Assembly: GCA_020854235.1 (NCBI GenBank) | Contig: JADZFW010000018.1 | Span: forward strand, 1 to 64,000 | Source of the DNA: Flavobacteriaceae bacterium | GTDB taxonomy: Bacteria; Bacteroidota; Bacteroidia; Flavobacteriales; Flavobacteriaceae | DNA: 64,000 bases | Direction: 5' to 3' | Shown: positions 22,408 through 61,190 of the stretch, piece by piece | How positions within the stretch are numbered: the first letter of the stretch is position 1 | Layout of the letters: each line of letters opens with the position of its first letter | The notes under the pieces: model-generated | The model's database searches: none | Seen by the model: the letters and a program-made list of their open reading frames with translations, nothing else | What the model was told of the DNA's origin: nothing | Translations under genes and position numbers: made by a program

Positions 22408-22696
22408 GATGTGTGTAAATCTGGGACTATACAACGGGGCAAATGTATAAATTTATTTGAATTAAAAAAATTTTAATAAAAAATGTTATAAAATAAATAA
22501 TACTTTTTTTAATAAGCTTCTTTCTAGGGTTGTAAAAATTTAAAAAATTTCCCCATCAAGTATATAAAATGTAGGAAATAACTGTTTTTATGATGATTTT
22601 GTGATTTCTAACGTGCCTCCTAACTTTGATAAACATTCTGAAGCGAGCTTTATAAATTATATGTGAAGTTCCAAAAATGGAGAGATAAAGTGTGCT

Positions 22697-22801
22697 GTTG
22701 TGCCACATTTGGGATAAGTTGGGTCAGAATTGTCGCATGTTGAGTCACATTTGTCCTATGTTGGGTCAGATTTGTCTCAAATGCGGGTAAATTTGAGATA
22801 G
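22697..22801. repeat. Degenerate 21-bp tandem array, about 5 units
   Basis: Units at 22697, 22718, 22739, 22760, 22781, e.g. GTTGGGTCAGAATTGTCGCAT / GTTGAGTCACATTTGTCCTAT / GTTGGGTCAGATTTGTCTCAA. Confidence 0.75.
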
Positions 22802-58015: not shown

Positions 58016-59452
58016 TCATACAACTTCCTCCGAAGTCAAATCTTCCGAATAATCCGTATCAAATCTTCGTGCCGCATCATCGTCAAATTCTCCTTCCCAT
58101 CGTGCTACAACTGCCGTAGCCAAACAATTCCCTATTACATTGACACCCGTCCGTGCCATATCCATCAACTCATCTATTCCCAATATGATGAATATCGGCC
58201 AGGTAGGTAAACCAAAACTGGCAGCCGTTCCCAATAATATGACCAGCGAAGCTCGCGGTACGCCGGCAACACCTTTACTTGTTACCATCAAAGTTAAAAC
58301 AATTAAGATCTGCTGCGAAATACTCAAATCGATATCCGCTACTTGCGCCACAAAAATGGTCGCCAATGAAAGATATAAAGTCGTCCCATCCAAATTAAAA
58401 CTGTATCCCGTAGGCATCACAAATGCCACAATTTTTTGCGGTACTCCAAATTTTTGCATGTTTTCCATAGCAATGGGTAATGCTGATTCCGAACTGGTCG
58501 TCGCAAAGGCAATACTAAAAGGCTCCGATACGGCAGCTATAAATTTTCGAATGGGAATCCTGATTATAAGTGCAATGGGCAATAAAATGACTAATAAAAA
58601 TACAATCAAAGCAAGATACAATGTGGCAAGCAACCAAGCTAAATTGACCAAAATATCAATTCCCATATGCCCCACCGAATAAGCAATGGCGGCAAAAACC
58701 GCAACCGGAGCAAAATACATCACAATATTGGTAAACTTAAACATCGTCTCCGATAAGGCTTTGGTAAATGTCAACATGGGTCGTTGGTACTTCTCGCTTA
58801 AAAGTGCTACCGCGATTCCAAAAATGATACTGAAAACCACAATTTGTAAGACTTGACCTTCTGCAACCGATTTAGCTATATTCTCCGGAAATATGTGCAA
58901 AATAATTTCTTCCGTGGTCTGCGCTTTGACCGGATTGATCTGTGCCACAGCGTCCGTGAGCGGTTTTTCTACGCCTTCACCGGCTTTACTGATGTTGATG
59001 GCTATCAATCCAATGAACAACGCAATGGTCGAAACAACTTCAAAATACAATATCGATTTCCAACTCATCCTTCCTACTTGCTTCAAATCGGCATGACCGG
59101 CTATGCCTACAACCAAAGTCGAGAAAATCAAAGGACCGATGATCGTCTTGACTAAATTGAGAAAAATCTTACTGAAAATATTCATCTTCGATGCCCATAA
59201 AGGGATATCATAACCAAACTCAGCTCCCAGCACCATGCTGATCAATATCCAAGTAGTGAGCGATTTGCGTTTGATGGCATACAGAACCAATAAGACTATT
59301 CCAGCCAATCTGGACACCAGTAATACACGTGCATGTACTGAAGTAATTTGATAAAAATCTAAGAGATGTAAGGCGCTACTGATGAATAAAACCGAAACAA
59401 ACAATAAAATCAAAGTTGATTTTTTTTGAAAAATAGTTTGAAGTATGGACAT
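58016..59452 (-). CDS. Dicarboxylate/amino acid:cation symporter (DAACS family)
   Basis: ATTSSESALPIAMENMQKFGVPQKIVAFVMPTGYSFNLDGTTLYLS; GTAASFGLPTWPIFIILGIDELMDMARTGVNVIGNCLATAVVARWEG. Confidence 0.94.
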   Translation of the reverse strand: MSILQTIFQKKSTLILLFVSVLFISSALHLLDFYQITSVHARVLLVSRLAGIVLLVLYAIKRKSLTTWILISMVLGAEFGYDIPLWASKMNIFSKIFLNLVKTIIGPLIFSTLVVGIAGHADLKQVGRMSWKSILYFEVVSTIALFIGLIAINISKAGEGVEKPLTDAVAQINPVKAQTTEEIILHIFPENIAKSVAEGQVLQIVVFSIIFGIAVALLSEKYQRPMLTFTKALSETMFKFTNIVMYFAPVAVFAAIAYSVGHMGIDILVNLAWLLATLYLALIVFLLVILLPIALIIRIPIRKFIAAVSEPFSIAFATTSSESALPIAMENMQKFGVPQKIVAFVMPTGYSFNLDGTTLYLSLATIFVAQVADIDLSISQQILIVLTLMVTSKGVAGVPRASLVILLGTAASFGLPTWPIFIILGIDELMDMARTGVNVIGNCLATAVVARWEGEFDDDAARRFDTDYSEDLTSEEVV

Positions 59453-59784
59453 GTTTTTTATTTTAAAAAGTCTAAATCCCAATCAAACAAAAATAGGTTT
59501 TTATATCCGTACTACAATAGAGTGACTGTTTTTTTTCCTAATCGACACTTTGAAATATAGATGCAAGGTCGGTATTCTTTTTACGCATTCTTCATAAGGG
59601 AAAGGCTGTGCAAATAGATAAATTGCGCTTAAAAATTTAATTTAAGTACTTTCCTGAATCGTTAAAATAAATTTGAAAAGCCTTAATTTTAATTTATTAC
59701 AACCTCTTTGAATTGAGATTTGCCCAAAATAAGGTCCAGTCTCAGCTGTAGTACAAACCTTAGAAGCACAATTTTTTCTGATAA

Positions 59785-60165
59785 TTAAATACGGTGTTCC
59801 GAAATAGGTACAATTTGTTCCAAATTAGATACAAAATGTTCCAAACAATGAACAAGTTGTTCCAAACAATGAACAAAATGTTCCAAACAAGAAACTTGCT
59901 GTTCCAAACAATGAACCTTTTGTTCCAAACAATGAACCTTTTGTTCCAAAACATGAACATGTTGTTCCAAAATATGAACAAAATGTTCCAAAACATGAAC
60001 AAAATGTTCCAAAAGATGAACATGTTGTTCCAAAACATGAACAAAATGTTCCAAAAAGTGAACAAAGTGTTCCAAAACATGAATAAAGTGTTCCAAAACA
60101 TGAACAAAGTGTTCTAAAACATGAATAAAGTGTTCCAAATATGCAACATGAGGTTCTGAAATCAA
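59785..60165 (-). CDS. Possible heptad-repeat (His-rich coiled-coil-like) protein encoded by the 21-bp array
   Basis: 126-aa ORF of (VLEHFVH)n; three other frames over the array are also open, so coding status is unproven. Confidence 0.3.
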   Translation of the reverse strand: MISEPHVAYLEHFIHVLEHFVHVLEHFIHVLEHFVHFLEHFVHVLEQHVHLLEHFVHVLEHFVHILEQHVHVLEQKVHCLEQKVHCLEQQVSCLEHFVHCLEQLVHCLEHFVSNLEQIVPISEHRI

Positions 60166-60172
60166 ACCATTT
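59795..60172. repeat. 21-bp tandem array, 18 units (last degenerate)
   Basis: Units start every 21 bp from 59795 without indel; consensus TGTTCCAAAACATGAACAAAA. Confidence 0.97.
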
Positions 60173-60286
60173 CAAGGTGTAGTAGAGGTCATTTCAAACG
60201 AAGTGAGATATCTTTTTTTAGGAATCAATCGCAGATGATTACTAAAAGGCTCTATATCTCATCGCTTATTATCTTGTTTCATATAC

Positions 60287-60403
60287 CCTTAAATCCGCAA
60301 GGATTTAATATTCGTGTTTATTTATCAGTTACTTAGTTTGTATTTTTAATCATTCTATATTCGTGAATTAGTGGCTTTTAACATATCCTTTACGGATTTA
60401 AGG
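60287..60403. repeat. Inverted repeat pair CCTTAAATCCGCAAGGAT / ATCCTTTACGGATTTAAGG
   Basis: Arms at 60287-60304 and 60385-60403; the left arm also self-pairs (AAATCC-GCAA-GGATTT). Confidence 0.7.
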
Positions 60404-60563
60404 TAAACAATTATAATTCTAAGATAAGCCTCTTGAATGAGGTGCCATAAGGTAAGCATATCATTCTCAATGGAACATTCAATTATTTTTCTATACTTTT
60501 GAGCCATTCAAACGGGTAATCATCACCTCAATTCTTATAATCAATTCCATATCTCATTCCATT

Positions 60564-61190
60564 ATGTCTGAAATGCTTGCTAACTCAAATCAATCCGAAT
60601 CATGTCCATTGAAAAAAGTCGCCGTTTTCTGTGGGGCCAGTTTGGGATTCAATGAAGCGTATCGTCTAGATGCCATCGCTTTAGGCGAATTCTTTGCCGA
60701 AAAAGGGATAAGCATGGTCTACGGAGGAGGTAAAATCGGTATGATGGGAGCCATTGCCGATGCCATGTTGCGCCTAAACGGGGAAGTAATCGGTGTGATT
60801 CCTCACCTATTGCGACACGAAGAAGTTGCACACGCCGATATCTCTGAAATGCACGTTTCCAAAACCATGAGCGAACGCAAAGTAACCATCAGTAAAATGG
60901 TAGACGGTTACATTGCTTTAGCCGGTGGATTTGGTACGCTGGATGAAATATTCGAAGCGTTGACCTTAGGCCAATTGGCTATCGAAAATAAACCCGTAGG
61001 CATTCTAAATACCAATGGTTTTTTTGATGCCTTGTTAAATCAACTCGATGTCATGGTAAAAGAAGGCTTCCTGCGAGCTGAAAATCGTAAAATGTTAATA
61101 GTCAGTAATTCCATCCCCGATTTGATTGATAAAATGAATGCTTATCAAGCGCCCAAAGTCAGTAAATTGGTCGATACCGTGGGTAGTTAA
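60564..61190 (+). CDS. LOG family protein (TIGR00730; cytokinin riboside 5'-monophosphate phosphoribohydrolase-like)
   Basis: VAVFCGASLGFNEAY; MVYGGGKIGMMGAIADAML; ALAGGFGTLDEIFEALTLGQL (PGGxGTxxE-type). Confidence 0.92.
   Translation: MSEMLANSNQSESCPLKKVAVFCGASLGFNEAYRLDAIALGEFFAEKGISMVYGGGKIGMMGAIADAMLRLNGEVIGVIPHLLRHEEVAHADISEMHVSKTMSERKVTISKMVDGYIALAGGFGTLDEIFEALTLGQLAIENKPVGILNTNGFFDALLNQLDVMVKEGFLRAENRKMLIVSNSIPDLIDKMNAYQAPKVSKLVDTVGS

Follow-up and report, generated by a model that had tools for sequence, protein, structure and literature searches.

The locus described here raises a more general question, namely, why unrelated satellites in some bacteria keep one exact repeat length. 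In the window (the whole stretch of 64,000 nucleotides of a Flavobacteriaceae contig that was analysed), 18 units of 21 bp are arranged head to tail, with starts at 59795, 59816 and so on to 60152 and an unbroken register, as found by inspection of the units; TRF calls this array at periods 21, 42 and 63. The initial annotation of the stretch described such an array, free of slips, with a nearly invariant TGTTCC, clustered variation and GAACA-N3-TGTTC palindromes, and all these observations hold. In particular, TGTTCC is intact in 16 of the 18 units, the variation within family A units is concentrated at positions 10-14 and 18-21, and the palindrome GAACANNNTGTTC occurs nine times in the window, each time inside the array, compared with 0.1 occurrences expected from dinucleotide shuffles. 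The first two and the last two units are decayed, and unit 18 (GGTTCTGAAATCAAACCATTT) is recognisable mainly through the TGTTC found at the same place in the sister species. As argued below, the array is very likely a non-coding intergenic satellite with a constant repeat size of 20-21 nt and a variable sequence, and its step may be held at two helical turns.

The features of the window are listed in Table 1, with the neighbouring genes named by reading their proteins. In the sister species (G001, MAG Flavobacteriia bacterium S06.Bin215), synteny between the LOG-like gene and the array is preserved. A MITE-like insertion of approximately 111 bp is located at positions 60283-60405 and has the inverted ends CCTTAAATCCGCAAGGAT and ATCCTTTACGGATTTAAGG; the orthologous site in G001 is without it, and similar pieces are present in G002, a genome of the same genus. 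Seven short heptamer tandem repeats are also present in the window (at 2992, 3593, 10169, 12764, 31448, 52396 and 63822).

Table 1. Tandem arrays of the window and the genes next to the family A array
Feature	Positions	Strand	Remarks
Left neighbour gene	58016..59482	-	dicarboxylate/Na+ symporter-like membrane protein; distance to the array, 313 bp
Right neighbour gene	60564..61190	+	LOG-family-like protein; distance to the array, 392 bp
21-bp tandem array, family A	59795..60172	.	consensus TGTTCCAAAACATGAACAAAA; 18 units including the decayed edge units
Homogenised core of the family A array	59837..60130	.	14 units; AAACAATG block first, then AAAACATG block
Edge units of the family A array	60131..60172	.	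each with 1 difference from the sister species
Second 21-bp array, family D	22690..22800	.	TGTTGGGTCACATTTGTCCCA, about 5 units, intergenic; unrelated to family A

The array has numerous counterparts in its own genome. In 850 kb of the own assembly (G000), TRF identified 18 arrays of period 21 that are at least 80 bp long, along with none of period 20 and two of period 22; these 850 kb represent 34% of the assembly and are not a random sample, some contigs having been fetched because of matches, so that the density of arrays is not to be extrapolated. The 18 arrays fall into about 10 sequence families, among which G and I are related and the others are little related or unrelated. Family A is found at three loci in the own genome and in the sister species, family B at three own loci and two in the sister species, and family C at two loci. 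Altogether, 4 period-21 arrays were detected in 418 kb of the sister species, compared with none in 132 kb of the same-genus genome G002 and none in 728 kb comprising 58 control loci from other bacteria. All 23 arrays examined are located between genes that can be divergent, convergent or tandem, and this mixture of orientations implies that there is no preferred position with respect to promoters or terminators. Families H, G and I form three arrays in succession within about 1.1 kb (G000:C151, L167, 18669-19747). A 22-bp family (GGCTACTGTGATTAGTAAGGAT) is represented by arrays of 6-7 units in the own genome (G000:C85, L158, 8989-9133, and G000:C183, L172, 19064-19197) and is also present in G001 (L085, 3706-3767).

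Two further family A arrays are encountered in the own assembly, on contigs G000:C155 (16 units) and G000:C68 (18 units). In all three own arrays, units of the AAACAATG type precede those of the AAAACATG type, with a less clean order on C68, and each array has its own bases at positions 18-21; the common block order combined with the private bases indicates that these arrays share an ancestor and were later homogenised separately. The orthologous array of the sister species adjoins the same LOG gene on an 82,368-bp contig and is cut by the contig end. Between this array and the one in the window (A1), 2 of 100 flanking bases and 1 of 21 positions in each of two edge units differ (about 2-5%), and, of four inner units compared, three carry 4-5 differences in 21 positions (19-24%). 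This contrast between core and edge is the pattern that turnover of whole units in the core, together with ordinary drift at the edges, would give. Both orthologous pairs, A1/A4 and B1/B5, contain altered units, so the conservation of arrays between relatives is only partial. The phyletic spread is narrow: the family A unit pattern was detected in one of 301 genomes of the family, the own genome, and in none of the GTDB contigs or viral contigs, and by similarity family A was found in one sister species among 60 relatives. A phage or plasmid origin of the array was dropped because the phage and plasmid collections gave no match to positions 59795-60172.

Transposition of arrays together with their flanks was considered and rejected: the family A loci have no common flank apart from the ortholog, and in family B a palindrome is common to three loci on one side only and is missing at the own array B1. 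This palindrome, which is perfect and 32 bp long (AAGGCTTCCAGCCTTTAAAGGCTGGAAGCCTT), lies directly beside the family B arrays of G000:C94, G001:C93 and G001:C82 (L152, L154, L155), and B1 is without it even though B1 is the ortholog of the array on G001:C82. The palindrome is present in 11 copies in the own genome and two in G001, with none in G002 and G003. Dispersed repeats of the GACTTGGAGTCG type, which recur over many contigs, flank the family A array on G000:C68 (L010).

The constancy of the step is best seen across arrays. Neighbouring units in 22 arrays differ at 1,138 of 6,108 positions, which corresponds to roughly 570 events because each unit substitution is counted in two comparisons. 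The same arrays contain a single phase shift (minus 1 bp) and no 3-bp indels, the latter being noteworthy because a reading frame would tolerate such indels. The comparison with the sister species gives 0.091 indels per substitution in intergenic and 0.014 in coding sequence, from which about 52 or 8 indels, respectively, are predicted for the arrays, against the one observed. The shortage is partly ascertained because the repeat finder favours regular arrays, and the gap between predicted and observed indels is large despite this. Within units, variability shows an excess of power at 10.5 bp (mean 0.252 compared with 0.167 for an autocorrelation-matched null, p = 0.005, with arrays that are not all independent and few of which are significant singly), as though contacts were made along a single helix face; this rhythm is suggestive only. 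Several other candidate common features were not borne out. Predicted curvature and phased A-tracts (wedge model) are unusual only in family L, and whole-unit dyad symmetry is not above shuffles in nearly all arrays. The tetranucleotides TGTT and GAAC recur among families, and no 4-6-mers are common to more families than in shuffles, so a motif shared across all families is not significant.

These observations lead us to tentatively favour a helical-phase reason for the 21-bp step, that is, a protein that would read phase or a DNA geometry beyond the wedge model. Units would be gained and lost whole, by slippage or unequal exchange, and the step would be retained because it amounts to two helical turns. 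The likeliest cause would be contacts to one helix face along the array, made by a protein that binds or bridges DNA or arising from local DNA geometry. The main rival to this preferred reading is neutral origin, in which a replication or repair bias creates 21-bp duplications that slippage expands into arrays that do nothing. This is a serious possibility, even if not one that we consider probable. It is consistent with the lack of a significant motif shared between families, the lack of preference for particular neighbouring genes or orientations, and the fast turnover of units. Furthermore, 7-bp tandem repeats are enriched as well (45 in 850 kb of the own genome compared with 5 rows in the control loci, which total 728 kb), which indicates that this genome is repeat-prone in general. 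However, shifting the 21-bp units by 10 reveals no similarity within them, and they are not built of 7-mers or 10-mers, which speaks against their derivation from such shorter repeats; some 50 indels would be expected where one is seen; and every one of the arrays is intergenic although a 21-bp period would leave a reading frame unbroken. In a more specific version of the helical-phase reading, a nucleoid or DNA-bridging protein, sensitive to helical phase more than to sequence, would assemble on the arrays, and selection would hold the step at two turns and leave the sequence to drift; this particular version appears rather unlikely. A point against one binding protein is that a single protein would predict a motif common to all families. 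The unremarkable predicted curvature of most families and the lack of resemblance within units at a shift of 10 also count against the helical-phase reading.

It is improbable that the arrays are transcribed and act at the RNA level, as sponges or small RNAs in which every unit forms a small hairpin. Compared with shuffled units, folding is far better in families E and L and marginally better in family A, and there is a precedent in the 52-nt satellites of Bacillus coagulans, which are transcribed (PMC8625621, PMC8161180). Nevertheless, the units of most families fold no better than shuffled ones, so that a hairpin in each unit is not a common feature; the array has no Rfam match, and strand and position relative to genes are inconsistent.

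An origin- or parS-like role, in which one initiator or partition protein would bind the array, has to be considered given that iterons and partition centromeres similarly consist of direct repeats, about 20 bp long and in phase, that contain inverted half-sites, and the palindromic half-sites in the present array are phased at two helical turns. Unlike those elements, the arrays are numerous, unrelated in sequence and dispersed over many contigs, which leaves an iteron or centromere function unsupported. The genes adjacent to the array are symporter-like and LOG-like, with no initiator or partition gene identified beside it; the phage and plasmid searches argue in the same direction, and roughly half of the units in each family A array lack an intact palindrome (it is kept in 9 of 18, 8 of 16 and 10 of 18). 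We regard this function as very improbable. Thus, the suggestion in the initial annotation of a phased structural or protein-binding DNA array survives in its general form, which fits better than a protein, and is not supported in its iteron- or centromere-like form.

Finally, the other original proposal was a repetitive protein resembling a coiled coil and built on heptads, VLEHFVH and MFQNMNK among them; four frames had been described as open for more than 100 codons. Four overlapping ORFs of 107-126 codons are indeed present, and the array frames produce weak Pfam matches to coiled-coil families, but these matches are all below the cut-offs, and different frames resemble different families. 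The long frames are readily explained by the fact that 21 is a multiple of three, so that a stop-free unit stays stop-free in every copy; the four open frames are a by-product of repeat geometry and no evidence of a gene. In a per-frame test of the Ka/Ks type, run as normalised N/S on the 56 family A units, values across the six frames range from 0.61, the lowest of any frame, to 3.43, with no amino-acid-level constraint in any of them. For the VLEHFVH frame, in which substitutions had been described as often conservative, the value is 1.61, with amino-acid changes above expectation. Across all these units, positions 1-9 are almost unchanged, and this holds for the third codon positions of whichever frame is considered. 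In the unit at 60110 (TGTTCTAAA), a stop interrupts the MFQNMNK frame, where the sister species has CAA. As for the other arrays of this class, all six frames contain stops in array E and in four family B arrays out of five, one family B array includes a unit shortened to 20 bp by a 1-bp deletion, and none of the 23 arrays examined is spanned by an open frame. With the Pfam matches under threshold and the frame tests negative, a heptad-repeat protein gene is extremely unlikely and was rejected.

The properties of the array closely resemble those of a class of bacterial tandem repeats, described by Subirana and Messeguer (2020, 2021), in which the size is constant (20-21 or 52 nt) and the sequence variable. 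In that class, several families occur per species, and these are species-specific and mostly non-coding; a short motif is often common to the arrays of a species; and the 20-21 nt length equals two helical turns, for which the authors proposed nucleoid stabilisation or small RNAs (PMC8161180). Five of the six features of the class that we tested were found here. By definition, a member has four or more regular repeats of 20-21 nt, and all 18 units are 21 bp long; one length is maintained in 18 arrays from about 10 families in 850 kb; in the collections searched, family A is confined to the own genome and one sister species; the arrays are not protein-coding, being intergenic, free of codon-like constraint in family A and, in sister arrays, interrupted by stops; and arrays and array length are partially conserved, as in A1/A4 and B1/B5. 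Judged on these sequence characters, the array can be assigned to the class with high confidence. The present case differs in coming from a Flavobacteriia MAG and in that a short motif linking the families could not be demonstrated, and it adds measurements of unit phase, indel shortage and orthologous turnover. Flavobacteriia relatives of the array may already figure in the 2020 survey of 1,241 genomes by these authors. The 52-nt satellites of Bacillus, which they also described, likewise combine constant size with variable sequence and form dispersed non-coding families, but have another repeat size and are reported only from Firmicutes. The tandem repeats of Borg elements are similarly abundant and intergenic in a compact genome; unlike the arrays described here, they vary in unit length, and many of them lie in genes (PMC12660748).

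The genome pair analysed here makes the question of repeat length more testable, with orthologous arrays in two close species, about 10 families in one genome, and a shortage of phase shifts measured against the local intergenic indel rate. There is also a first hint that conservation within units follows the helix. Were a nucleoid or DNA-bridging protein to assemble on the arrays, its footprint would be seen in the 10.5-bp conservation rhythm and in the near-complete lack of phase shifts.
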